From the NCBI GenBank assembly GCA_000525675.1, contig CP002190.1:1860001-1924000 (forward strand): DNA of 64,000 nt, in the 5' to 3' direction. The position numbers and the translations under genes were made by a program. Shown one piece after another: positions 3,981 through 44,594 of the stretch. This stretch comes from Bdellovibrio bacteriovorus W. GTDB taxonomy: Bacteria > Bdellovibrionota > Bdellovibrionia > Bdellovibrionales > Bdellovibrionaceae. Every line of letters begins with the position of its first letter. The stretch's first letter is position 1. The notes beneath the pieces are model-generated. The model saw nothing but the letters and a program-made list of their open reading frames with translations, was not told the origin of the DNA and ran no database searches.

Positions 3981-4583
3981 ATGAAACCCTATGTAAAAAT
4001 CGTTGTCACAGGCGGCCCTTCGGGAGGCAAAACTACTCTCATTGATGCACTAAAAAAGGAACTTGGCCAAAAATGTGCCCTCGTTCCTGAAGCAGCTAGT
4101 ATTCTTTATCGAGGAGGTTTCCCTCGCGCCAAAGAAGACGTGACGACAAAGCATGCGCAAAGAGCCATCTACTTTACTCAAAAAGAATTAGAAGAGCTTG
4201 TTTGTCAGACTTCCCAAAAGCCCTTGATCGTTTGCGATCGAGGCTCCTTAGACAGTGCCGCTTACTGGCCTTACGATGAAGACAATTTTTTTAAGAGTTT
4301 AAACACATCTCGAGAAACCGAACTAGCTCGCTATGATTGGCTCATCCACCTGGATACAGCCCCGATTGAGTTTTACGATTCCACGAATCCCATTCGCACT
4401 GAGACCTTTCAAGAAGCATGGGACCTTAATGAAAAAATTAAAAATGCATGGAAAGGTCACCCTCGTCGTATTGTGATCTCTCACAACAATGACTTCCTTT
4501 CCAAAATGACAACATCTCTAGCTGTCATCCAAGCCATCCTCGCACACAAAAGTGCGGACGAAGTGAAGGAGCTTTTAAAATGA
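3981..4583 (+). CDS. P-loop ATPase, AAA_28/NadR-like kinase fold
   Basis: This 200-aa protein starts almost directly with a Walker A loop, VTGGPSGGKTTL at about residues 9-20. It also has a Walker B/lid-like LIVCDRGSLDSAAYWP near residue 82. This pairing is typical of the AAA_28 group of predicted ATPases and nucleotide kinases. The substrate is unknown. The stop overlaps the next start by four bases (ATGA), which implies translational coupling to the secreted protein that follows. Confidence 0.8.
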   Translation: MKPYVKIVVTGGPSGGKTTLIDALKKELGQKCALVPEAASILYRGGFPRAKEDVTTKHAQRAIYFTQKELEELVCQTSQKPLIVCDRGSLDSAAYWPYDEDNFFKSLNTSRETELARYDWLIHLDTAPIEFYDSTNPIRTETFQEAWDLNEKIKNAWKGHPRRIVISHNNDFLSKMTTSLAVIQAILAHKSADEVKELLK

Positions 4584-6481
4584 AAACACCCATCTTTGTC
4601 TTGAGTTTACTATTGAGCTTAAGCCTTCATGCTCAAACCACAGATGTAGACTCCTCTCAAACAGAAGATTCAATTACTTTCGAAGACTCTGCGGCAGCCA
4701 ATCCCCCTGCAGAAATCGATGAAACTGTCTCTTCTGAAGAAGCGACGTCTTCTACGAAAACTTCGCGCAAAAGCTCTCCGAAGTTAAAGCCACTTTACTT
4801 CCAAGCTGATAAAAATAACTTGCAAGTTTTACCTCAGCGCTTTGAGTACACTCTCTTAGATCAAAACCGCCTCAAGGTCGGAAATATCTTAATCGACACT
4901 ACTGAAATTCAATTTCAGATTGAAAGAACAAACGACAAGAAGAATCCTTATGCGATTCGCTTTCAATGGCCTGCAGGACTTATCAAAGAAGGACAACTAG
5001 CGATCAAGAATAATTCTGGGAAAGCTATCTTCAACCGAAATATCCAATCCAGTGACTTAAAGCTGAGTGGCGCCACTACGAATGAAGATGGCCTGATTGT
5101 TGAGACAGCTTCTCTGACTTTTTCAGATGTTGATGCCTCGATGATTGATGACATGAAGTACTTCCCGTTCATGACGTTTTGTATCTTCAAAGAAAGCTAC
5201 GAAACAAGATTGTATCTTTGCTCTAAAGAACTTTACTTAAGCTCTCAAGGTGGAGCGATGGTTATCAAATCGCGTGATTCAATAAAAAGAAACGCGAACA
5301 TTGACATCAACGGTAAGGTTGTCGGCAATCAAGGGATCATCTATCTCAACGATCGCAACGAGAACGTCGCTTTTAAAGCGCACACACAAACAGGGGCTTT
5401 CCTAGAGATTGAAACGCGCATGAAAGATGTGGATTTTAAGGACGTAGTTTTAAGTCCTGATGGTAAGAGAATCATTCTTACTGCTTCCGGCGCAAAACCT
5501 TTTGACACTCGCAACGTCAAAATTTTTTCAGAAGATGAGTGGCAAATAACCCTACCGCGCTCGCGTCCTGTTTTATTTCTAAAAGGTGAAGGCGACATTC
5601 CAATGCGCCAAGAGTTTTTTATTCGCGGTGTACTTCCCCGCGAGGGCAATCGTATCTTTGTAAGCCCACGCTCCCCTTCTAGAACTTACTCTTCGAGTCT
5701 TCGCCTAACGGGCGTTACTCCGAAAGGTATTGAGGCGAGCACTTTACCAAATGAAACCACTGCGGCTTTAAAAAAAACCAAAGGCCAACAGTTTCAATGG
5801 AACATTCATGATATTCCATCGGGAGTAAATAGCCGTCACTACCTTTTATCTAAGCATGGTGATGAGGCCTTCACCGTCGGCTATGACGTTTTTAGAGGAC
5901 GTCCATTTGTCTTTGATCTTAAGGCCAATTACCAAACTCCATCAGCCACGGGATACGCAAGCTTAGGTTTACAGTGGTGGATTGAAAACATGCTTGGCCT
6001 AGATGCTGACTGGGCACGCTTTCATTGGGGCTTGAGCGTTCGTTATGCAAGTCAAATCATGAAGAACGATGAAGCTCCAGAGTTTGATAAAATTAACTTT
6101 GAACTTTTATGGAGAGCCCAAGAAGGTTTCTATTTCGTAGATTCCACATGGGGACTCTACCTACCTGTTGAAATGTTGCAAGGAAGTGGTTCAAGCTTAA
6201 TGGCCTATGGAGCTGGTTTTTTCATGCACACGAAAACTCAAAATCCGATGTGGCGCAAGTGGGCTACTTGGTCTGAGCTCAAAGCGCAATACCTCTTCGC
6301 CGGAACTGGCGACGTGGAGCTAAGCTCTGCCTATCAGCTCGGGTGGACAGCCTATAAAAACATTTCATCTAATTGGTACTTCAGCTATGGCGCCTTCATC
6401 GAAGACTATAAATTCGATCCAGCCGCTCCAAAAGAAGAAATGCAAATCGGCGCCGAACTAGGCCTCCGCGCAACATTCTAA
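4580..6481 (+). CDS. Secreted/outer-membrane protein, paralogue of the 42.5-44.6 kb gene
   Basis: The 633-aa product has a signal peptide (core LSLLLSLSLHAQ), an acidic Ser/Thr-rich linker to about residue 70, and a beta-rich body. The C-terminal 170 residues alternate aromatic and polar residues like a barrel and end in a terminal Phe (ELGLRATF), as outer-membrane barrels do. It shares order and short motifs with the 686-aa protein at 42534-44594: KPLYF at the start of the mature domain, an Ile/Val-Gly-Asn strand, a TYS(S/D) segment and a final barrel-like region. I infer a duplicated family. The function is unknown. Confidence 0.8.
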   Translation: MKTPIFVLSLLLSLSLHAQTTDVDSSQTEDSITFEDSAAANPPAEIDETVSSEEATSSTKTSRKSSPKLKPLYFQADKNNLQVLPQRFEYTLLDQNRLKVGNILIDTTEIQFQIERTNDKKNPYAIRFQWPAGLIKEGQLAIKNNSGKAIFNRNIQSSDLKLSGATTNEDGLIVETASLTFSDVDASMIDDMKYFPFMTFCIFKESYETRLYLCSKELYLSSQGGAMVIKSRDSIKRNANIDINGKVVGNQGIIYLNDRNENVAFKAHTQTGAFLEIETRMKDVDFKDVVLSPDGKRIILTASGAKPFDTRNVKIFSEDEWQITLPRSRPVLFLKGEGDIPMRQEFFIRGVLPREGNRIFVSPRSPSRTYSSSLRLTGVTPKGIEASTLPNETTAALKKTKGQQFQWNIHDIPSGVNSRHYLLSKHGDEAFTVGYDVFRGRPFVFDLKANYQTPSATGYASLGLQWWIENMLGLDADWARFHWGLSVRYASQIMKNDEAPEFDKINFELLWRAQEGFYFVDSTWGLYLPVEMLQGSGSSLMAYGAGFFMHTKTQNPMWRKWATWSELKAQYLFAGTGDVELSSAYQLGWTAYKNISSNWYFSYGAFIEDYKFDPAAPKEEMQIGAELGLRATF

Positions 6482-31635: not shown

Positions 31636-32691
31636 TTACTTGAGGCCTAGGAATTTGAAAGGAGCCGACTCCTTAAAACTCGCCGTCGCATCGCCAGAGA
31701 AAATATTTCTCTGATCTTTGCCAAGATCGAGAACCATGGTTTTAGCTCCTTGTGCAAAATCAATTTTCTTTAAATCTACCCAGAAAGTATTTGGAGTAAG
31801 AGCTGACTCAAAGAAGTAAAGCTTGCGTGAGTGATCAGAAACAGTTCTCCAACGAGTTGATGAAATATTTGGTTGTCCCGGTGTTGTGATTCCATAAGGT
31901 ACTGAGACGTTACGAACAACACTGAATACACTTGCTAAAGCAACCACTGGATCTTTACTTTTCGGAATCGCATTAATATAGAACGACGCTCTCGCAAAAC
32001 GATCTGCCGCACGATTCGTCCCAGGCAACATGACGGTTCCACCAATATCTTCCCAATAAGAATTCAATGCCAATTGTTTCTCAAATGTCGGAGAGTTCGT
32101 CATCACTTGATACTTTTTATCGTGATGGATCACTTGCTTGCCATTGATGTATTCTACGATTGCACTGTCCCCTGTTGCATCTGAAATTGAAAGATGCAAA
32201 GTTGCTAAACGCTTTTGACCTGGAACTTCTGCGGTCACCACATCAAACGGCTCTTTACGAAGCTCTTCAACCGCTTCTTTCACTGTCGCATAATTATCCA
32301 AAACATACTGTGCCCATAAAGAAATTGCTAAATGAGACTTTCCTTTCACTGGCTTAGGATATTCAGACTCTGCTAGCCACAAAAGATTTGCGACTAAACC
32401 TTTCTCATTCATTCCATCTGTTGATGAAATATCATATCCCGAAGCGATCACACTTCCATATTTTGAGGTCCACTTCGCCGATGTCGCGCCCGCGGCTCCA
32501 TCTCTAGCCACTCCTCGAGGGAGAATCCAAATATTAGTGTGAACGTCTTCCTTCCAATCCATCGTTCTACCAGTGATGATATTGTTGCCAACACCGTGAT
32601 AAACGGCGCGAGTACAAGCCTCACTCGATAGTGGCATACTCGTAAAAGCAAAAACTAACCCCATGCCTGCTGACATCCATGCACTTTTCAT
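31636..32691 (-). CDS. Choloylglycine hydrolase/penicillin V acylase family Ntn hydrolase, exported
   Basis: This is a 351-aa protein. A signal peptide ends ...SSEA|C, so the mature chain would begin with Cys26 (CTRAVYHGVGN), the catalytic N-terminal nucleophile of the family. The ITGRTMDW and NEKGL motifs follow. Ntn hydrolases of this group cleave amides such as bile-salt conjugates, penicillin V or acyl-homoserine lactones; the substrate here is unknown. ATG 32691 has AAGGAG seven bases upstream. The frame extends to 32760 but lacks such a site there. It is transcribed alone. Confidence 0.88.
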   Translation of the reverse strand: MKSAWMSAGMGLVFAFTSMPLSSEACTRAVYHGVGNNIITGRTMDWKEDVHTNIWILPRGVARDGAAGATSAKWTSKYGSVIASGYDISSTDGMNEKGLVANLLWLAESEYPKPVKGKSHLAISLWAQYVLDNYATVKEAVEELRKEPFDVVTAEVPGQKRLATLHLSISDATGDSAIVEYINGKQVIHHDKKYQVMTNSPTFEKQLALNSYWEDIGGTVMLPGTNRAADRFARASFYINAIPKSKDPVVALASVFSVVRNVSVPYGITTPGQPNISSTRWRTVSDHSRKLYFFESALTPNTFWVDLKKIDFAQGAKTMVLDLGKDQRNIFSGDATASFKESAPFKFLGLK

Positions 32692-32843
32692 TCTAATCTC
32701 CTTCAGAAATAATAGGCGTGATTGTGAAATATCTTTAGAGACATTATCAAATGACTTCATATTTACTGTATGAATCTAAATAAAATGAGTCAACGCACTC
32801 AAGACCAGTTCCGATTGATTCTTGACGTAAATAAGACAAAAAA

Positions 32844-32942: not shown

Positions 32943-33842
32943 TTACCAGTTAAAGCTGCTCTCGTCGTAACCCCAGCTAGCTAGAGCTTTTTTGTACATA
33001 CCTTTCATGAACTTTTGCGCTTGGTGAGGCTTGATACCTAACTCAGAAGCAGAACGATTTGTAAGATCTTGCATTGCTGCTTTATCGCCGAATGCTAAAT
33101 CTTTTGCCGCTGCTAAAGCGTCAGAGAATTGAACACCGAAAACTGCACGGAAAGTTTTATCCATGTCTTTTTCAGTTGTGAACCCACGCTCCGCTGCTGC
33201 TACAGCCCAAGAGTTCAAAGCAGAAGCTACAGCTACAGCTTTATCTTGTTTGAAACCATATTCAGAAACTAGTCTTTCAGAAGCAAGTTTTACGATTTTT
33301 TTATTAGCGTCAGAATTTAACGCCGCAAAGTTTGTATCTGTTGCAGACGCAGAATCCTTATCGTTCACCGCTTGACCGTAGTTAGAGTCAAATGCGTTGG
33401 CACTGTAAAGAACGCCGTTTTTCCCTAGCCAATATTGACCGTTAGAGATGTTCTCCCAGAAAAATCCAGATGTGCCTACACCGATCGTAGTTCCACCCAT
33501 ATATCCTGCGAACTCAGATGCATTCGCATAATATTGAAACTGACCAAACTCATTGTATACAGAGGCGCGACCGTAAGAATCGAAATTCACATACCACATA
33601 TCATCAGAACCGTGTCCACGACGACCATAGTCTGGATCTTCAGTAACTGTGATGCGGCTGCCATTTCTTAAAAAAGTACAACCTGGAGTTGGCTGCTGTG
33701 TGCTACAAACATCTCCGTAAACAGTTTCGTACGGATAGTAGATCACTGTTCCACCACCGCCAGCTCCGCCGCCACCGCCACCGCAGGCTGCAAACATCGT
33801 CGTCACAACTGTAGCAGCTGCTACTCTTAAGAATACTTTCAT
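32943..33842 (-). CDS. Putative lipoprotein with a poly-Gly linker
   Basis: This 299-aa product has a lipobox FAAC near residue 20, immediately followed by a run of glycines (six Gly, Ala, four Gly). The Gly run is encoded by a low-complexity stretch that could vary in length. A middle beta-rich Tyr/Gly part has a Cys pair (DVCSTQQPTPGC). The C-terminal 130 residues look helical (KIVKLASERLVSEYGF... MDKTFRAVFG). No family is recognised. It lies 42 bp after the S8 protease gene on the same strand, so it may belong to that operon. Confidence 0.8.
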   Translation of the reverse strand: MKVFLRVAAATVVTTMFAACGGGGGGAGGGGTVIYYPYETVYGDVCSTQQPTPGCTFLRNGSRITVTEDPDYGRRGHGSDDMWYVNFDSYGRASVYNEFGQFQYYANASEFAGYMGGTTIGVGTSGFFWENISNGQYWLGKNGVLYSANAFDSNYGQAVNDKDSASATDTNFAALNSDANKKIVKLASERLVSEYGFKQDKAVAVASALNSWAVAAAERGFTTEKDMDKTFRAVFGVQFSDALAAAKDLAFGDKAAMQDLTNRSASELGIKPHQAQKFMKGMYKKALASWGYDESSFNW

Positions 33843-33884
33843 ATCATTCCCCTTTTTAGATGGTCCTTATAAATAACCAATATA

Positions 33885-36800
33885 TTAGTAAGTCAAATGA
33901 ACCCTTAGTAATCGGTCCCCACAATAGTAGTCCAGCGCGTAGGCCCCTTTGCTTCCCAAGAACACTGGAGTTTCCATAGATCGACATGAAGTCGACTTGA
34001 AACGCAAACGAGCCGGTGACACCAGTTCTACTGGAGTACCATCCTTTGCAAAAACCGGTACCAACATTCTGACACCACGACTGAGCCCCGAGTTTTCTGT
34101 CGTAAAAATGCTTGGTAAACGAGCTTTGCTATTTGTCGAATCCATGACACTTAAAGGCAAGTATAGAGAAACAAACAAGTTATCTGGAAAGAACGAATAG
34201 CGATTCATACTCGTTGAAACAACTTTTGAACTGTAAAAATCGTGAAACTGAATTTCAGAGTTTGTTAAAACAAAAGCTCCGCCACGTTTATCGCCTAAGA
34301 ACGCAGCGCGCACTCTCAATGCAGAGTCAAATTGGGACCGCTCAGCCCTAAGAGCCCGATCCATCAAATCCCCTGTGCTTGGGGTGTACAAGGTCATACG
34401 CTGTTGTCTTTGCTGCCCCTCGCCGAACCAAAAACTTCCTGCATAAGGATCATTACCTAACCGTAAATTATGAATGGCATCCACACGGGTATCGAGAATA
34501 TTTCGATAGGTTTCTTCCCCTTGAAAATCATCTAACTGTCGGAAGTTCTGAATACTTCCCTGACGAAGCTCTGCCACTGCAAAGTCGTAAAGGAACGATG
34601 GTTTCGCGGCTGTGCCTTTGTTTTTAGCCAACAGTAAACTCACAGTGCCCGTTTGGTTCTGAGAAGTACTTGGCTGAATAATATCTGCGATATGATATCC
34701 ATTGAATGTTTCAAGGGATTGCAACTTGTTATCTGCATTTAAGAAATACAAACGTAGTTTGCGTGCCTCGCGACGATCTGGATTCTCCCAAAGATCCTTA
34801 AGAGAATCTTTTTTCGCAGGATCTTTTCCGCCGCCCATCCACACAGGACGCTTTGTCTTACCGATACTTTGCCAATAAATATGTCCCGCATCCAAAGGCA
34901 TTTCGCTCAACTCTGAGTTGTAAACGAATTGATCCTTCAAGCGCATATTCTCATCGAAAATATAAAAACTTGTCGGAGAAGCTTTACGATCTTCAGAGCG
35001 ATCTTCCAAAATTCCTAGAACGTACTCACTCTGCCCGTCTTGATCTAAATCCATGCGCGCAGTGACTTTGTCCAAGAAATTATCGCTATTACCTTCAATA
35101 CGGATGCGTGTGCCTCCGAAAGCTTCATAAACTGAATCTTGAGTTTGGCGAACGATCCAAACCTGCCACTGATTTCCTTGATCCAAATAAGCTAAATAAT
35201 CTCGTTGAGAGGTTTTAGCATCCAGCACCTGATCTACGGGAATAAACGAAATGCGTCCTTTGGGTAAATTGCGAATTTCCATTTGCTCAACATCAGAGCC
35301 GCGTAAGTCTGGAGTCACAGGTACAGTTACATCGGCTTCATAGACTATTCTACGATCAGCCTGTCCTTGAGTTTTTACGAAAACAGAAAGTTCTAACTCG
35401 CTGGGAATTCTGGATTTAGAGGGATCACTATGATCTGTGATCTCTAAGTGGGCGACGAACTTTCGCTCCTCCCCTTGCTTCCAGATTTTTGCGTAGGGAG
35501 CGACCTCTTGAATACCTTTGATCGCAGGGCGCACCATTTCAGCATGAGCCTTTTCAAAAGATGCCTGAAGCTTCACTTGATCTGAAGAAACTTCCGCCCA
35601 ACGATTCACAAGAGCAAACTCGAAATGAAGATTTTTATTTTGGCGATCCCAACTGATCTCAGCCTTTTCTTTGGAAGCCATGACCACTAGGGGTTGAGCC
35701 TTTACATCTAAAGCACTCTTAAGACTTAACTGTCCTGCAGAGCCATATTTTTTATAGATCAAACTCTCTGGCGATAAAGGCACTGGTCGCTCGTGGGAGC
35801 CACCTTTAAGTAAATCTAAGTTAGCCTTAAGATCACGACTCCCCAACATCAGTCTGGCGTGAACATCTTTGGCTGGAACTCCACGCGCTAAGAGCTCCGC
35901 TACAGCAGCAGTCACATAAGGAGCCGCTTGAGAAGTCCCAGACAGAAATTCATAACCTAGTGTAGAGCGAAAACGCACAGGGCGTTTCTTCTCTGGGTAA
36001 GTACTCAGGATATTCACACCCGGAGCAAAGATATCAACACCACTGCCAAAATTGGAAAAGTGCGCAGAGCCACCATCAGGGCCCGTTGCCCCTACACAAA
36101 TCACATTCGGATAAGCACAAGGTCTTAAGAGAGCCTTTGTGGAGTCGTTTCCTGCTGCTGCAACGATAATGATTCCGCGAGATTGAGCTTCAGCAATCAC
36201 CTTACGCATGAGCTCTGAGTCTGAGCTTTGTGGCCACCCCATAGAGAAGTTAATCACCTGCGCCCCTGAGCGCATCGCATAGATCACACCACGGGCAACA
36301 ATATCACCAAGACTGCGGCGTTGATTCTCTTTCCCCTGCTCGAACTGAGAATCGATCGACAAGGGTTTTAGAGGTTCACTCGGCTGCACACCGATCACTT
36401 GAACCGGTAATATTTCGACGTTATTACTAGCGCCTTGAATACCCAGGCGGTTTTGCACTTCTGCTGCAATAATACCCGCAACGTGAGTGCCATGTCCTTG
36501 ATCGTCGTCAAAATCAGGACGTCCCATGATACCCGCTTGATTGACACCACCTAAGAGACTCCACCCTTGGCAATCCAGTGGGTAACCGTTCTTATCTTGA
36601 TCAACCTCGGGATTGCTCAGATCCATCCATTTCTTTTCACAACTGGCGCGATCTTGATTGCTTACGCAATCTTGAAACTTCGCAAGAGCCTTACACTCAG
36701 ATTCATTTCTGCGAATGACATTCTTCAAGTCAGGATGATTTTTTTGAATGCCCGTATCTAAAACTGCAACAAGGACTTTCTTTGCGGCTTTAACCATAGG

Positions 36801-36983
36801 CGGTCGCTGAATGTCCTCACCCGATCTCGCAGGAACCTTTAGAGTTTGCAGAGGATCGATATCTACAATCTGAGGTTCTCCGGTATTAGAGATCGCCCAC
36901 TGTAAATGTGAAAAATCTTGAGCGACTGCAGTCAAAGTGAAAAACAACGATAAAACGCCAGCAGGGATTCTTATTTTTCTCAT
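33885..36983 (-). CDS. Secreted subtilisin-like S8 serine protease with a large C-terminal region
   Basis: The protein has 1032 aa, with a signal peptide (SLFFTLTAVAQ). The S8 catalytic triad is complete: Asp76 in VAVLDTGIQ, His164 in GHGTHVAG and Ser351 in LSGTSQAAP, plus the oxyanion Asn279 in AAAGND. The N-terminal domain holds extra cysteines between Asp and His. Beyond about residue 400 are 630 residues with beta-rich segments, including a DLDQDGQSEY calcium-loop-like motif near 650. It starts inside the last bases of the 1133-aa gene (ATGA overlap), so the two are translationally coupled. Confidence 0.92.
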   Translation of the reverse strand: MRKIRIPAGVLSLFFTLTAVAQDFSHLQWAISNTGEPQIVDIDPLQTLKVPARSGEDIQRPPMVKAAKKVLVAVLDTGIQKNHPDLKNVIRRNESECKALAKFQDCVSNQDRASCEKKWMDLSNPEVDQDKNGYPLDCQGWSLLGGVNQAGIMGRPDFDDDQGHGTHVAGIIAAEVQNRLGIQGASNNVEILPVQVIGVQPSEPLKPLSIDSQFEQGKENQRRSLGDIVARGVIYAMRSGAQVINFSMGWPQSSDSELMRKVIAEAQSRGIIIVAAAGNDSTKALLRPCAYPNVICVGATGPDGGSAHFSNFGSGVDIFAPGVNILSTYPEKKRPVRFRSTLGYEFLSGTSQAAPYVTAAVAELLARGVPAKDVHARLMLGSRDLKANLDLLKGGSHERPVPLSPESLIYKKYGSAGQLSLKSALDVKAQPLVVMASKEKAEISWDRQNKNLHFEFALVNRWAEVSSDQVKLQASFEKAHAEMVRPAIKGIQEVAPYAKIWKQGEERKFVAHLEITDHSDPSKSRIPSELELSVFVKTQGQADRRIVYEADVTVPVTPDLRGSDVEQMEIRNLPKGRISFIPVDQVLDAKTSQRDYLAYLDQGNQWQVWIVRQTQDSVYEAFGGTRIRIEGNSDNFLDKVTARMDLDQDGQSEYVLGILEDRSEDRKASPTSFYIFDENMRLKDQFVYNSELSEMPLDAGHIYWQSIGKTKRPVWMGGGKDPAKKDSLKDLWENPDRREARKLRLYFLNADNKLQSLETFNGYHIADIIQPSTSQNQTGTVSLLLAKNKGTAAKPSFLYDFAVAELRQGSIQNFRQLDDFQGEETYRNILDTRVDAIHNLRLGNDPYAGSFWFGEGQQRQQRMTLYTPSTGDLMDRALRAERSQFDSALRVRAAFLGDKRGGAFVLTNSEIQFHDFYSSKVVSTSMNRYSFFPDNLFVSLYLPLSVMDSTNSKARLPSIFTTENSGLSRGVRMLVPVFAKDGTPVELVSPARLRFKSTSCRSMETPVFLGSKGAYALDYYCGDRLLRVHLTY

Positions 36984-39900
36984 CGGAAACTCCCTTGACT
37001 GCGATCAAGCTCTATCGGCGAAATACCTGTTTTTGTAGCAAACATATTTATCAAACCTGCTGCGTAATCAAGATTCTCAGAAGGATCACCGAGTGTGTTT
37101 GAGAAATACTCTAAGTCTCCGTCCTCATCACCAGCTCTAAAACCGTTAATGCGAACAAAATAAATATAATTCTCTGCACCGATATATTTTAAAAGCTGTG
37201 ATAGAGGAATTTGCTCTTCTAAAAGATAAAGAACTTCTGTCATCCAACGCGTCTGACCGATTTTATCTTTTGGATAGCGACCAGAATAGTCGATCAACTT
37301 ATTCATCCACGGAACCATACATTCATAATTACTTCCGTGAATCCAAGCCGAAGTCACTCCAGGAGTGGATCTATCACCATTGCGTTTTTCTTCTAACTCT
37401 TCACACTGAGTACGGAAAACGCCGCGCCCTTTTTGTAAGTCGCCATTGCCAAGAACTTTAAGCATGGCTTCGAACATCGCTTTATCATTGGCTCTTGCGG
37501 GCCTTCCCATTTTCTCACTGATTTTCTGAAATCCAGCGGCTAAGAACTTCGCTCTTGGAACAGGTTTACCATTATAACTGGGCTGCAAGATCAAATCGCG
37601 CAAACGCTCCAGTCCCTTTGGCAATAAAGAAAGCTGTGCGGTGATTCTATAGAAATCCACCGACTCAACATTGGCAAAGGCTTCTTTTTCAATCAAACGA
37701 TAGCTGGCCACGGGTGTGTTCTTTAGCTCTCCTTGCACTTCATCAATCAGTTTTAAAAACTTTTTGCGACTTAAGTGCCATCCACCCCAAACTTTTTGTG
37801 AGCTTGCCACAGAAGGATACTGCGTCCCCCGAGCGGTCAAATCAGCTTCAGTTGTAACCATCTTCCAATGGGCTTTACCAAATGGAGTGTTGGCAGGATT
37901 TGGATCTTCAGAGCGTGCGACATCGATACGCGCCTTCGGAGAGAATTTATTAATAAGTCCTTCAATCCAGTCTGTGGCAAAGCCTAAAAGGTCGCGCCCC
38001 TTGAGCTCACCTTTTTTATTAGAGAACAAAGTGATCTCTTCATCCCGTGGATCTAGGTGTGGGGCTTCTGGATTTCTTGGATAGCGGATTTTTAATAAGT
38101 GATCTTCGTTAAATTTACTCACGCGCAAAGCTAATAGCTTCGTGCGCACTTCTTTGGTTTTTAACTGATGGTCGATCTCAAATTTCTTATGCTTGAACTG
38201 CGCATAGAGTATCTCTGGGTCATTGGACTTGAAGAGCGCTCTTAATGCGGGCTTTAAAGACTTCCTAGCCTGCATAAAGTCTTTTACGAATCTTTGCTCA
38301 GACTGAGATGAGTCGATCAAGTCTGCATACTCTGGGTTGTAATCCACAATAAAGGCGTCGGTTCTTAACTCTGTTGAGTTAGTTGTCGCCCTTAAACGCA
38401 AAAGATTTAAGAAGTAGTTCACGTCAAGCGTGGCACCAAGAACAGTTCCCTTTTGTGCGCGCACATAGACTTGAATACCGTCGCGCGTGCGCATGAAGCT
38501 TGTCTGACGAAGAGTCACTCGATTAGCATCAGCTCCGACAGAGACAGATGTCATAAAGTTCATCGGTGAAATTCCTAAAAGAACATCGAGCGATGATGAA
38601 AGTTGGCCATAGGTTGCAAGAACCACAGAGTCAGTAACTGTGAAAACTTCACCTTCACGCAGCTCAGCTAAAAAGGCATCCAGAGAGTCTCTCTGTGGAG
38701 CATCCCCTTGCGCTTTCGTTTTTTCATCATCTAAAACACTCGAAATCTTTTTCATGAACCCTGGAACCAAAAGATCTTTCCAAGGAACCTTTGTACCTTC
38801 TTTAATAGATAGCAAAGGACGAACATGGGTGTAATCCCTTTGCACCATCACATTGGCGCCACCCATTGGAGAAACATTAGGCACTCCATCAACGGCCATG
38901 AAGTAGCCCAGACGAGCCCCCATGCTGAGGTTATCCACAAGCTGAATAGCTGCCGAGCTTCCGTAGTAAGTCCCTGTCGTCACGTGGCGTGCGGCAGATA
39001 GAGAGAACCCTCCAACAGGTCCACCCCAAGCTTCAACCTTTTGGTAAAGTGGCTCGAGAGGTTTTTCTTTAATGTGGCGAAAAATTCTATCGGTGATCTC
39101 TTGGCGTCGACCGGCATAGAGATCACTCACTTTAAGTAAATCTAATTGTTCGTTGATATGATTTAAAGCAGTCCCAATGGCCGCTGTCTTTGCGCGAATG
39201 CCCAGATGTCTTTCAATATCCCCGTCTTGGAATGGACTTTGTCTTTCCCCATGGGCAAAGCGCTGTGGGAACCCTGGCACAAACTCTTTCGTCACCTTGC
39301 CATTCTTAACAAGACCTGAAGACGAGTTGATTTTTTGTAAGTCAGGAAGATTGAATTTCAACTCTGATTTTAAATCAAAAAGCTCTAAAGCATTATGCAC
39401 TCGGTGCTTGAGTTTAGCTAATACCAAAGACTCAAGCTCTTGCGGGAAGGCTCCTGCACGAACAATTTCTTGCAAATCAGCATCTTGAAGTTTTGCAAGC
39501 CTGCGCACAAGCCATCTGGCGTCCTCATAAGTACAAGCCGAGAACGATTCTGCCGAAGGGTGATTCATCACTACATGCCCTGAGAGAACTGAACCAAATT
39601 TTGCAGAGTAACGATTGATACTCTCTGGCACATCTACTAATGAAAATGGCAGAATCAATGCACGATAGGCACGATAACGAGAATATCTTTGCACTGCTGG
39701 AAGTTGATCTGGATTGTTTGGATCTGGAGCATAACCCCAATGAATATCAAAATACTCTGCAACAGAGGGTTCTAGAACCGCATCGGCGAACGTCACGGAG
39801 TGTTCGTTCTTGTTATCGTCTAAAATCCACCCACGACTTTCAAAGTCAGAGATCATGGATTCTTGAGCGTTCTTTAAAAACTCATTTTTTTCATCTTCAT

Positions 39901-40381
39901 TTTGAAAAACAATTTTGAGTCTTGGATAATACTTGGGTGAAGGAACGTAGTATCCCAGTTTGCGCAAAAGAGCCGATCGCATCAACATTGTGTGAGAGTA
40001 GCGACTTAAAGAGAATCTATAATACTCATTCGGATTTTCACGCGAGCGCACACGTGACATATAGGTAAATGGCAGTGCCGCTTCTTCAGATAGAAATTCG
40101 ACGCCGGTCATTCCATTGGGGAAGCTAAGGCTTGCAGAATCACTGGCCGCGTAAGTTTTATTCTGCCACATTTTATTTTCAACGGGATTCAGAAGACTTA
40201 AGTCCTCGCCTCTACCTGCAAGGACAGCCGCTTGATTGGCATCCAGTAACTCTCCACCACGAGTGATAAGATCATTGGATGGTTTTTTAATCGAGTTTAA
40301 AGGCAATGAGACGCTCTCTGCATTCGCAATGGAAAGCAGCATCAAGCAAAGTGCGCAAATAATCACTATTCGCAAAGACAT
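36980..40381 (-). CDS. Large exported protein of unknown function
   Basis: The 1133-aa product has a signal peptide (ICALCLMLLSIANA). The mature chain has no recognised domain or catalytic motif. Residues about 100-260 look mixed alpha/beta (SRYSHTMLMRSALLRKLGYYVPS, then RLKIVFQNEDEKNEF). A central part (450-660) has barrel-like alternation (GPVGGFSLSAARHVTTG, LSMGARLGYF, TSVSVGADANRVTLR). A helical C-terminus follows. It lies between a papain-like protein gene (27 bp upstream) and the S8 protease (4-bp overlap), and I infer a partner or substrate of these proteases. Confidence 0.82.
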   Translation of the reverse strand: MSLRIVIICALCLMLLSIANAESVSLPLNSIKKPSNDLITRGGELLDANQAAVLAGRGEDLSLLNPVENKMWQNKTYAASDSASLSFPNGMTGVEFLSEEAALPFTYMSRVRSRENPNEYYRFSLSRYSHTMLMRSALLRKLGYYVPSPKYYPRLKIVFQNEDEKNEFLKNAQESMISDFESRGWILDDNKNEHSVTFADAVLEPSVAEYFDIHWGYAPDPNNPDQLPAVQRYSRYRAYRALILPFSLVDVPESINRYSAKFGSVLSGHVVMNHPSAESFSACTYEDARWLVRRLAKLQDADLQEIVRAGAFPQELESLVLAKLKHRVHNALELFDLKSELKFNLPDLQKINSSSGLVKNGKVTKEFVPGFPQRFAHGERQSPFQDGDIERHLGIRAKTAAIGTALNHINEQLDLLKVSDLYAGRRQEITDRIFRHIKEKPLEPLYQKVEAWGGPVGGFSLSAARHVTTGTYYGSSAAIQLVDNLSMGARLGYFMAVDGVPNVSPMGGANVMVQRDYTHVRPLLSIKEGTKVPWKDLLVPGFMKKISSVLDDEKTKAQGDAPQRDSLDAFLAELREGEVFTVTDSVVLATYGQLSSSLDVLLGISPMNFMTSVSVGADANRVTLRQTSFMRTRDGIQVYVRAQKGTVLGATLDVNYFLNLLRLRATTNSTELRTDAFIVDYNPEYADLIDSSQSEQRFVKDFMQARKSLKPALRALFKSNDPEILYAQFKHKKFEIDHQLKTKEVRTKLLALRVSKFNEDHLLKIRYPRNPEAPHLDPRDEEITLFSNKKGELKGRDLLGFATDWIEGLINKFSPKARIDVARSEDPNPANTPFGKAHWKMVTTEADLTARGTQYPSVASSQKVWGGWHLSRKKFLKLIDEVQGELKNTPVASYRLIEKEAFANVESVDFYRITAQLSLLPKGLERLRDLILQPSYNGKPVPRAKFLAAGFQKISEKMGRPARANDKAMFEAMLKVLGNGDLQKGRGVFRTQCEELEEKRNGDRSTPGVTSAWIHGSNYECMVPWMNKLIDYSGRYPKDKIGQTRWMTEVLYLLEEQIPLSQLLKYIGAENYIYFVRINGFRAGDEDGDLEYFSNTLGDPSENLDYAAGLINMFATKTGISPIELDRSQGSFR

Positions 40382-40408
40382 CTCATGACCTCGTTTGTTT
40401 CAAATTTT

Positions 40409-41401
40409 CTATCGGCAGCGCTGACGATAGTGAGCCAATAAGGCTTTTTCAAAGGGTTCTCTTTCGCCCTCGTCCACAATAAAAGTCCCGACCGCATAAC
40501 TAGCCCGAGTTGGTTCAATTTTTCCAATGATTTCTGGAGCAAAGAAATGTTTACGCTTTATATCGTAGTAAACCAGTTGATCTTTCGATGGTTGATTGGA
40601 GTCGTAGGCCTTAATCGTAATTATATTCGAGTTGAGGAATGAATAAGATTTAGCCATGACAATGTGTTGGACAGTCTGAGCCGCTCTCAGGTTTATCAAC
40701 GTCAATCGTTTGCCATTTAAATTTCTAATAATCTGATTCATCGTGCGCGCGTTCACATCTTCGTCACGAACGCCGGATCCTAAACCCATTCCAAGATTAC
40801 GGAGTCGAAAGAAATGGCGACCTTGGCTAGCTTCGATTTCAGCTTTGAACTTTCTATCCACGTTTACAAAGTTCAGTCTTTGCTTGTATCCCGTCTGTAG
40901 ACGGCTCCACAGACCCGTGCGAAACTTTGCGGATTCAGCAAGACTGCCTTCCTCAACCGGAAAAACACTATAAGCTTTTAAATTGTATTCAGAATAAGGC
41001 GTGACATCGTGTAGAGAGCCCACGGGGATATTTTCAACAAGCCTTTTCCCACGAACCATATCTAGTATCTGAGGAATCTCTGCCTCTTGCTCTGAAGGCT
41101 TCACATAATAACGACCGAGATAGGACACCATACGTTGAGCGCTGGATAAGGCCCAACAACCTGCCAAGCTCGCAAGTCCACTTTGAAATCCCCAATTGGT
41201 GATGGGCATATTGCGACTTTCATCAAAGGCATCCTCACGGATCGCCGCATAGATATGATCCACGCTTAAATTTTGACAACTGAGATTGCGCACCAAAGAG
41301 TCGTTGATCAAACGAGGCCCCTTGGAATGGGCTTCTTTAATTCCTCCAAAAGTGGAGGATGTTCCCATAAAAAGAACTAAAGCCATATGCTTTAACTTCA
41401 T
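40409..41401 (-). CDS. Exported papain-like cysteine peptidase-fold protein (predicted)
   Basis: The product has 330 aa with a signal peptide. Sequence order fits a papain/C39-type fold: Gln73 and Cys82 in FQSGLASLAGCWALSSAQR, a candidate His246 in VQHIVMAKSY, and IKAYDSNQP near 264-271, which resembles the Asn/Asp region of such peptidases. The catalytic assignment is an inference from spacing and context; some such proteins are inactive. It opens a minus-strand operon: 27 bp to the 1133-aa gene, then the S8 protease with a 4-bp overlap. Confidence 0.72.
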   Translation of the reverse strand: MKLKHMALVLFMGTSSTFGGIKEAHSKGPRLINDSLVRNLSCQNLSVDHIYAAIREDAFDESRNMPITNWGFQSGLASLAGCWALSSAQRMVSYLGRYYVKPSEQEAEIPQILDMVRGKRLVENIPVGSLHDVTPYSEYNLKAYSVFPVEEGSLAESAKFRTGLWSRLQTGYKQRLNFVNVDRKFKAEIEASQGRHFFRLRNLGMGLGSGVRDEDVNARTMNQIIRNLNGKRLTLINLRAAQTVQHIVMAKSYSFLNSNIITIKAYDSNQPSKDQLVYYDIKRKHFFAPEIIGKIEPTRASYAVGTFIVDEGEREPFEKALLAHYRQRCR

Positions 41402-41615: not shown

Positions 41616-41861
41616 TTAGTTTTCTCGCAACCCTCGTCTAAGATATTCAACCATGAGTGATTGGTATTTTTTGCCATCCGCTTTGGCTTTCAACTTAATC
41701 GCTCGCAAGACATTTCCAGGCACTCGCAAACTAATGGCAACTGTGGGCTCATCCACTTCGAGAGTCATCGTCCTCATGTCTTCTAAAAAACGCAAGGCCT
41801 CTTCTGGAGAAATTTTTAGACTTTGAGTTTCATTTGTTTTTTTTGTTTTTTTATTTTTCAT
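41616..41861 (-). CDS. Ribbon-helix-helix (CopG-type) antitoxin-like protein
   Basis: The 81-aa protein has a Lys/Thr-rich N-terminus, then VAISLRVPGNVLRAIKLKAKADGKKYQSLMVEYLRRGL, the strand-helix-helix pattern of CopG/RHH DNA-binding domains. The start overlaps the nucleotidyltransferase 3' end by 11 bp. I infer an antitoxin and autorepressor. The first codons run through A5, A7 and A8 tracts, which can slip. Confidence 0.8.
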   Translation of the reverse strand: MKNKKTKKTNETQSLKISPEEALRFLEDMRTMTLEVDEPTVAISLRVPGNVLRAIKLKAKADGKKYQSLMVEYLRRGLREN

Positions 41862-42321
41862 TCAATTTTCTTTTGATGTTCTCTACATCAATAAGGTCTT
41901 GGGGCCTTGCCGCTTCTTTCTTCATTTGCAAAATTTCTTTCAAAGTTGCAACGACAATTTTTCTTCCACCTACGGAGACTTTCTCTGTTTTAATATCTTT
42001 AAGATCTTTTGTTATTAGAATATCGACTTGCCGACTTGGGTTATTAAAGTCGACAAAAGACCACGCGATTAGATTGCGCTCACTTATATATTCTTTACGC
42101 ATTTTTATGATATCTTCGGCCCGCACTGGAATTCTTGATTGAAGACCAATCTGTTTGAGAGTCTTTTCTGCTAATTCAAAATCCACTTGTTTTAGGCTGA
42201 GTACGAAATCAACATCCATCGTGGCGCGCACAAGGCCATGCAGCGCAAGAGCATATCCACCAACTAGTGCATATTTTAACTTAGCTTTTTCAAAAGCGTC
42301 TGTTAATTCATAGAGAAGCAT
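41851..42321 (-). CDS. AbiEii-like nucleotidyltransferase, toxin-like
   Basis: This 156-aa protein has the pol-beta nucleotidyltransferase signature: the GG of ALVGGYALALHGL at 21-22, then MDVDFV with the metal Asp pair at 36 and 38, and a third Asp in RQVDILIT. Length and motifs resemble AbiEii/MNT-type proteins, which modify tRNA or protein partners in toxin-antitoxin systems. It is the first gene of a two-gene operon with the RHH antitoxin, the reverse of the common order. A tandem operator lies 31 bp upstream of its ATG. Confidence 0.8.
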   Translation of the reverse strand: MLLYELTDAFEKAKLKYALVGGYALALHGLVRATMDVDFVLSLKQVDFELAEKTLKQIGLQSRIPVRAEDIIKMRKEYISERNLIAWSFVDFNNPSRQVDILITKDLKDIKTEKVSVGGRKIVVATLKEILQMKKEAARPQDLIDVENIKRKLNEK

Positions 42322-42533: not shown

Positions 42534-44594
42534 CTAGAAGTTAATACCCACGCCGACAGTGCCGTAGAAAGTATTTAACTCCGCCTTTTGATTCAGGCTT
42601 GTATTCGTGAAACCGTAGCGTTTGACACCAAAGCCAGCTTCACCAAAGAAAGTATCTGTCCAAAGAACTTTACCGTGGAAGTTCAATGACATCGAAGAGT
42701 TCAACTCTACGTTAGAATCCATAGAGCTCAAGTAATAAATAAACTCCATGTCCACCCATTTTGGATAACGCAAGAATGGAAGAAGGTTGAAGAAATCATC
42801 AAACACCTTCGGCATAGAGCGTGCCCAGAAAGCACCCACACCCATCATCGGCGCTTCTAACTGATCGAACTTAACACTTTGATAAGACGCTAGAAGCCCT
42901 AAAGACTCATCACGCCCCCATAGACCTGGAGTTAGACGGTAACGAGCATCTGCTGTTAACACGCTCAATGGAGCGCTGCCACCAGCATCGTCAATTTTAA
43001 GATCCATGAATGACTGGAAGTATTTTACACTCACTCCCCATCTTTGACGAGACAACCAGTAATTTGTCCAACCGAAAAGGTCTTCAAACCATTGGTTGTA
43101 AGCAATTTCACCCATCACAATGAATTCACTCGAAGCTTGAACCGCAGTGAATCTTCCTGAAAGTTCACGTGGGTAACCTTTGTAAAGTTCATGATACGAA
43201 CGATAGGCTTTATCTCCGAAGTCTACATTCACATAAGAGCGATTGATTTTACCGCGCTCTTTAGCTTGGAATTTCCAATAGAAATGTGCTGGATCTTTAG
43301 GATCTACACTGACAGAGATTTCATCAGAAGTAATTTCAGATACCGGCTGTTTGCGGCCTTCCAAAACGATTCCATCAGAATATGTTCCCGTCGGAGTTCG
43401 TGCACTTAAGTAAGGACGAGATTGCGCTCTTGGAATTTCAGAAAGCTCAAACTTTTGTTTAAACACTCCACCCACAACTCCAGGAAGATAAAGCTTTGGC
43501 TCTTTTGTATTAAGAGCCGCTGCCCAGAATACACGTGTGTCACCAATAGTAGATTCAAAACCAATCGCTTTTGTGAATGAACTGTATTGCTCTTTATTCA
43601 AAATGATTGAGCGACCAATCGGACGTGTCTCATAACCAACGATTCTTAGAAGTGTTGGCTTTTTTGTATCAGAAATATCCATAAGCTCCAGCTTATTCGG
43701 CATTGTCACAAACTCATACGACTCCCCAGTTGCAAGCTCTGCGTAGAAAGCTGTTGGCATATCCGCAGCTACAGGAACAGAGTTTTTCAAAGGAGCATTT
43801 TCATTTTGTACAAGAACGCGCGGATTCACATCATCGGTTCTAACTTTACCCATTACAACAGCATCGCCCGTGGATTTAGTGCCGTATTTTTGAGAGCAAA
43901 TACGCGTTGAGTTCTTTCCATCTGTTTGAGTCACACAGAAGTGGAAAACATCTTTTTGTCCCCAGAACGGAGCTTTTAGAGATTGAACGTTCTCAATGGC
44001 ATAATGAGATCCAAACACCCCACCACGCTGAACCTTCTTCGCATCCACGCCCTTAGCGATAAGAGCTTTTCTCCATTGTGCTAGATTCTTGGTCCACTGA
44101 TCTCTGTCTTTTTGAGTGAACGTATGAGTCCATAGAACCTCACCCGTTCTAGAGATCATCTCAATAGTCCCAGCACCCAATAAATGCTCTGGCCACGCCA
44201 TCACTAATGCATATTTTGACGCATCTCCACTGCTTAAAACAGCATCAAGCCCTGGATAGCTCTTTCCAAGAGGTACTAAGGCAAAAAAGAAGTTCTTTGC
44301 ACTGAGGCTAACATTACCGATTTTAAGAATCTCGCCCTTATTAGCCAATTCGTACTCTAGCTCAAGTGGTGGAAGCACCACGCCATTATCCAGCTGATCG
44401 AAATAAAGGGGCTTATTGAAGCTTTTTGTTGCAGCGGTTCTTAGGATTGATTTCTGAGGAGCTGGGATCTCTTCGACAGAATCCGCGACACTAGGTTCTG
44501 GAGTGTGAGCTGGGGTGCCTGTATTTTCCTGCGCATAAGCATTAAGAACTAGAAAAAATACCAAAGATGCAATCAGATGCTGTGCAGTATTCAC
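42534..44594 (-). CDS. Secreted/outer-membrane protein, paralogue of the 4.6-6.5 kb gene
   Basis: The product has 686 aa. A signal peptide (SLVFFLVLNAYA|Q) is followed by a Pro/Glu/Ser linker, then a KPLYFDQLDNGVV... domain and a C-terminal barrel-like part ending VGINF. It shares motif order with the 633-aa protein encoded at 4580 (KPLYF, GNV strands, a TYS segment, WGVSVKYF near the end). This is one copy of a duplicated family. The function is unknown. It stands alone, with a terminator. Confidence 0.8.
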   Translation of the reverse strand: MNTAQHLIASLVFFLVLNAYAQENTGTPAHTPEPSVADSVEEIPAPQKSILRTAATKSFNKPLYFDQLDNGVVLPPLELEYELANKGEILKIGNVSLSAKNFFFALVPLGKSYPGLDAVLSSGDASKYALVMAWPEHLLGAGTIEMISRTGEVLWTHTFTQKDRDQWTKNLAQWRKALIAKGVDAKKVQRGGVFGSHYAIENVQSLKAPFWGQKDVFHFCVTQTDGKNSTRICSQKYGTKSTGDAVVMGKVRTDDVNPRVLVQNENAPLKNSVPVAADMPTAFYAELATGESYEFVTMPNKLELMDISDTKKPTLLRIVGYETRPIGRSIILNKEQYSSFTKAIGFESTIGDTRVFWAAALNTKEPKLYLPGVVGGVFKQKFELSEIPRAQSRPYLSARTPTGTYSDGIVLEGRKQPVSEITSDEISVSVDPKDPAHFYWKFQAKERGKINRSYVNVDFGDKAYRSYHELYKGYPRELSGRFTAVQASSEFIVMGEIAYNQWFEDLFGWTNYWLSRQRWGVSVKYFQSFMDLKIDDAGGSAPLSVLTADARYRLTPGLWGRDESLGLLASYQSVKFDQLEAPMMGVGAFWARSMPKVFDDFFNLLPFLRYPKWVDMEFIYYLSSMDSNVELNSSMSLNFHGKVLWTDTFFGEAGFGVKRYGFTNTSLNQKAELNTFYGTVGVGINF

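Follow-up and report, generated by a model that had tools for sequence, protein, structure and literature searches.

An exported protein of no known family paired with an S8 subtilisin-family protease in Bdellovibrionota, and its possible role at the predator surface

Gene content of the locus

Within a 64,000-nucleotide stretch of Bdellovibrio bacteriovorus W (bases 1,860,001-1,924,000 of its single-contig genome of 3,006,992 bases; hereafter, the window), four genes for exported proteins follow one another on the minus strand. Two of them form the core of the module described here: the gene of a 1133-amino acid (aa) exported protein that we call the orphan (36980..40381) and that of a 1032-aa S8 subtilisin-family protease (33885..36983). 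They are preceded by the gene of a 330-aa papain-like protein (40409..41401) and followed by that of a 299-aa lipoprotein (32943..33842), directly 3' of which an intrinsic terminator-like hairpin on the same strand (32869-32843; a 12-pair stem, a 3-base loop, and a T-run) closes the unit. A gap of 27 bp separates the papain-like and orphan genes, the orphan and protease genes are translationally coupled through a 4-bp overlap, and 42 bp lie between the protease and lipoprotein genes; the exported proteins and their junctions are all where the initial annotation, made from the sequence alone, had placed them. The same order and 4-bp overlap recur in many relatives and at locus L129, which we take, together with its genome, G006, to be B. 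bacteriovorus HD100; hence, the arrangement is not a product of chance.

The protease matches Pfam Peptidase_S8 (PF00082) with an E-value of 6.5e-43 and 147.5 bits, against a curated cut-off of 21.8, and its catalytic domain (residues 68-366; 35886..36782) carries the triad D76/H164/S351, which is intact in 34/34 relatives. By profile and triad, it is assigned to peptidase family S8, as had been proposed, and proteolytic activity is predicted. Sec-type signal peptides stand at the N-termini of the orphan and the protease. The lipoprotein has a lipobox (MFAA followed by C20, ahead of a Gly-rich linker), which 20 of 21 relatives retain. Neither the orphan, for which no known family had been expected, nor the 330-aa and 299-aa proteins matched any Pfam, NCBIfam, or PHROGs family above noise.

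Co-occurrence of the four genes

Among 60 relatives, the orphan was present in 40, and all 40 have an adjacent S8 homolog on the same strand of that contig. A pattern scan of one genome per species (84,980 species) returned 41 orphan loci, all of which carry Bdellovibrionota-type labels, except for a few differently labelled metagenome bins. The S8 gene adjoins the orphan in 38 of these loci, two others (L098 and L101) end at a contig edge, and the orphan stop and S8 start codons are only a few bases apart in nearly all of them. In a profile search of sampled Bdellovibrionota, the orphan was found in 129/241 genomes and 68/142 genera. The lipoprotein, present in 30/60 relatives, is encoded downstream of the protease in most Bdellovibrionia and upstream of the orphan in many others. 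At L128, the papain-like and lipoprotein genes remain, and the orphan-S8 pair lies a megabase away. On gene content and arrangement, we regard the orphan and the S8 protease as an obligate, translationally coupled pair that is lost together, with the lipoprotein as its usual third member. A search for additional conserved partner genes turned up local synteny alone.

These patterns bear on the simplest alternative, namely, that unrelated exported proteins share one operon by ordinary co-transcription and that the protease is a general digestive enzyme. Predators secrete many proteases, and the positions of the lipoprotein and papain-like genes vary, as such an account would have it. However, the orphan-S8 pairing spans two classes, the two genes are still adjacent where their order is reversed to S8-orphan (L115, L117, and L123), and the orphan, protease, and lipoprotein are missing as a block at L133, where the papain-like gene and both flanks are kept. 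We therefore consider mere co-transcription very unlikely.

The block loss at L133 also separates the papain-like gene from the others. The initial annotation had read all four genes as one system; instead, the papain-like gene stands without the other three at L133, has paralogs elsewhere (L130 and L131), and adjoins the pair in some Bdellovibrio genomes but not in other genera or in Bacteriovoracia. Even in the putative HD100 genome, the gap to the orphan is 188 bp, versus 27 bp here. Thus, of the co-occurrence that had been suggested as a check, the orphan and S8 parts hold throughout the 40 relatives and the lipoprotein part usually, whereas the papain-like gene is an optional neighbor rather than a fixed member of the unit. 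As for its product, C82-W83, H246, and D267 do not vary across 22 sequences, placing Cys, His, and Asp in papain order as in C1 peptidases, but unlike those, it gave no profile match, PF00112 included. An hhalign comparison against 10 C1 peptidases of the phylum aligned only the CW site (11 columns, Prob 3%; 15% in a one-sequence run). Support for a papain fold is thus at the motif level, at which the protein fits a papain-like hydrolase; it may be a secreted hydrolase independent of the other three proteins, encoded in the same neighborhood.

Two further kinds of orphan homolog were seen. Distant paralogs (L132:2226-5696 and L128:1-6920; about 1135-1156 aa, E about 1e-34) have no S8 gene beside them, and those at L128 are two in tandem. 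In B. bacteriovorus strain kdesi (L090:10001-12963), the orphan gene is broken by internal stops into pieces of 216 and 746 aa, while the adjoining S8 frame is open.

Predicted fold of the orphan

Structure prediction, which the initial annotation had proposed for this protein, gave a confident AlphaFold2 model (36 sequences; predicted local distance difference test [pLDDT] of 85.2 and predicted template modeling score [pTM] of 0.81) that joins a kinase-like N-terminal domain (about residues 54-338; 39368..40222, minus strand) to a barrel-like sheet of 14 long strands (residues 450-1083; 37133..39034, minus strand). For the latter half, all 50 VIA matches shown and nearly all Foldseek matches were outer-membrane beta-barrels. 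The best among the VIA barrel matches were the 14-strand CymA (Z 11.7, rmsd 7.7, 260 aligned residues) and OmpG (Z 10.9), against a stated background of 7-8; Foldseek on its own was weak here (best E 0.012). The C-terminal half is thus modelled as a sheet closest to outer-membrane beta-barrels, with membrane insertion predicted at most.

Because the fold neighbors include the autotransporter translocators NalP, EstA, BrkA, and EspP, the orphan barrel could be read as a dedicated outer-membrane pore for the protease, that is, as a split autotransporter or a new form of two-partner secretion. The obligate orphan-S8 pairing and published work that places the protease at the prey would fit such an exporter. 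Like the NalP-type subtilisin autotransporters (type Va), the module combines an S8 protease and an outer-membrane barrel in one system; unlike them, it has passenger and barrel on separate open reading frames in all loci seen, and the barrel part differs from the NalP type in its 14 predicted strands, which are preceded by a kinase-like domain and followed by helices. Type Vb two-partner secretion relies on POTRA domains and a 16-strand Omp85 barrel, whereas a profile search of 36 orphans gave no POTRA, ShlB, or surface antigen match, nor one to Omp85, and the N-terminal domain is kinase-like. Further, many other secreted Bdellovibrio S8 proteases do without such a partner (the putative HD100 genome has 18 S8 matches), and the barrel shows weak amphipathicity. 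We judge a dedicated exporter to be quite unlikely.

The N-terminal part was also modelled alone (residues 23-442; pLDDT 89.8 and pTM 0.83). Nearly all of the Foldseek matches (best E 5e-3) and every VIA match shown were kinases, led in VIA by the Fam20 Golgi casein kinase (Z 7.9, 231 residues, rmsd 4.9) and followed by actin-fragmin kinase (Z 6.9). These scores lie at the edge of background, yet the matches agree with one another and cover the domain, which suggests a kinase-like fold. Fam20-type secretory kinases likewise present a kinase-like fold in an exported protein, but the orphan has no sequence relation to them and lacks a conserved ATP-site Lys and metal-binding Asp: column 122 holds R, T, or I, column 250 is divided among D (22), N (7), and E (4), no DFG-Asp is conserved at 278, and the canonical kinase Glu is likewise not conserved. 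Because none of these three residues of active kinases (Lys, Glu, and metal-Asp) is conserved, we read the domain as a pseudokinase-like module. Its invariant residues are R237, N256, D287, and W290. To our knowledge, no described protein combines an exported domain of kinase-like fold with a barrel-like half. A RAP domain (E 0.0089, in 8/36 members) was dismissed, as it falls under the Pfam cut-off and coincides with the modelled N-lobe, and searches of solved-structure sequences with the orphan and papain-like profiles returned nothing meaningful.

In two of the loci with reversed gene order, the pair has been elaborated. Ricin-type lectin domains are inserted into the kinase-like domain of the orphan at L115:9989-13609 and L123:6069-14047, both loci carry lipoboxes on the orphan and the protease alike, and the L123 protease has a weak ricin-type lectin match near its C-terminus, below the Pfam cut-off. 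The parallel change of both partners at L123 supports a shared workplace at the cell surface.

The protease in predation and a proposed complex

Little is known of how Bdellovibrio delivers its many proteases and keeps them under control, and the module connects to this question through its protease. In G006, the gene at 2,614,972 has an S8 domain at residues 124-366, and because the bounds described for BspE/Bd2692 are S123-T365 (PMC6510308), we took it as Bd2692. Interpolation from there to the S8 gene at 2,168 kb, taken as Bd2269, places Bd2428 near 2,336 kb, and the module protease (2,332.6-2,335.7 kb) is encoded by the sole S8 gene in the interval from 2,219 to 2,455 kb. By map position in this putative HD100 genome, the module protease is the ortholog of Bd2428. 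Bd2428 is listed with the S8 proteases that were detected in bdelloplasts left empty after prey death (PMC11003981); it is also reported to have been hit when mini-Tn5 mutants were screened for deficient predation and to be up-regulated at 30 min (PMC2797640). These reports support the prey-directed role that had been suggested for the locus. The papers treat Bd2428 as a lone S8 protease, and the main texts of the literature searched do not name its neighbors Bd2427, Bd2429, and Bd2430 (tags inferred from gene order); hence, a predation-linked protease gains an obligate, conserved partner that those texts leave unmentioned.

The N-terminus of the protease may point to what that partner does. 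S8 members outside Bdellovibrio mostly carry 80-125 extra residues ahead of the conserved QWGLxNxGQ start, whereas in Bdellovibrio the signal peptide runs straight into it, so that the mature protein begins at the catalytic domain. The missing extension would be in keeping with folding or silencing by a separate partner. None of the 34 S8 members matched the Pfam Inhibitor I9 family, which is little informative, since I9 matches are likewise absent from control S8 proteases of Bdellovibrio.

We propose, at roughly even chances, that the orphan, protease, and lipoprotein act in predation as a single envelope complex, with the orphan anchoring and controlling the subtilisin and perhaps aiding its maturation or release. 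The barrel-like half would hold the orphan at the predator outer membrane, and the kinase-like domain would serve for docking and control without catalysis. The orphan would be translated first, its synthesis tied to that of the subtilisin by the 4-bp overlap, and would capture the exported protease, hold it folded and silent, and present or release it at the prey interface, while the lipoprotein would tether or stabilize the complex and the released protease would attack prey envelope proteins. Among the roles that the initial annotation offered for the orphan, that of a scaffold fits best, and those of substrate or inhibitor less so. A more specific version, in which an exported pseudokinase-outer-membrane barrel fusion is a dedicated platform for a prey-delivered subtilisin, is tentative and rather doubtful; it would make the module a new kind of machine for protease delivery at the cell surface, one that is common across Bdellovibrionota and, judging from the single pattern scan over all species, essentially restricted to that phylum.

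Several observations weigh against the proposed envelope complex. At L119 (9857-13225), the sole clear exception to the pairing, an orphan homolog has no S8 gene within 10 kb. Two Bdellovibrio genomes (G011 and G021) lack the set, which is therefore not essential for the genus. The orphan is also present where the protease retains its N-terminal extension, so it is not merely a replacement propeptide, and we rejected that as its sole role. Significant in/out hydrophobic alternation is confined to strands 479-498, 579-596, and 636-655, and several strands are strongly charged; thus, the barrel may not cross the membrane. In the same direction, the orphan of two relatives has a lipobox, which an integral barrel would not need. 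A transposon insertion in Bd2428 may act in a polar manner on the lipoprotein gene. Lastly, mutual binding of the three proteins, like their surface location and the control and release of the protease, is deduced from indirect evidence.

The closest known counterpart is dentilisin of Treponema denticola, an outer-membrane-associated protease aimed at another organism and encoded by prcB-prcA-prtP, an operon for a lipoprotein, a large partner cut by the S8 protease, and that protease (PMC8167434). By analogy, the S8 protease could cleave the orphan during assembly, with the fragments and the lipoprotein remaining as a surface protease complex. The cast is the same, the lipoboxes on both orphan and protease at L115 and L123 recall PrcA and PrtP, and the NCBIfam model denti_PrtP matches the S8 domain, albeit at 92.5 bits against a cut-off of 300. 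Yet the gene order differs, the large partner in the present module consists of kinase-like and barrel-like parts, the orphan and lipoprotein show no homology to PrcA or PrcB in Pfam or NCBIfam (no direct profile comparison with these was made), and the confident model of the orphan shows a single fold in which no linker stands out as a cleavage site. Assembly by cleavage thus seems unlikely, and the module may work like dentilisin without, by the tests made, being a member of that family.

Lifestyle offers a further hint, drawn from very few genomes whose identities are putative. G025, presumably the epibiotic B. exovorus JSS, lacks the orphan, lipoprotein, and papain-like gene, whereas the orphan is present in G066, presumably Halobacteriovorax marinus SJ, as in the putative HD100. 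This distribution would also suit delivery of the orphan itself into a prey membrane with the help of the protease, given that PopA, the major Bdellovibrio outer-membrane protein, reportedly inserts into the inner membrane of the prey (PMC12228718). However, the location of the orphan is hypothetical and genomes of known lifestyle are few, and we regard such delivery as the least probable of the explanations considered here, and a highly improbable one.

Several other genes of the window lie outside the module. Just upstream of the papain-like gene, a 156-aa open reading frame (41851-42321, minus strand) has a weak AbiEii/nucleotidyltransferase match; the site is variable, since the putative HD100 genome has different small exported open reading frames there. 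Exported proteins of 633 aa (4580-6481, plus strand) and 686 aa (42534-44594, minus strand) look similar; the latter has no Pfam family, and its place upstream of the module is conserved within Bdellovibrio. On the other side, an exported choloylglycine hydrolase-family protein (CBAH, E 1.3e-46) is encoded at 31636-32760 on the minus strand, adjoining the module.

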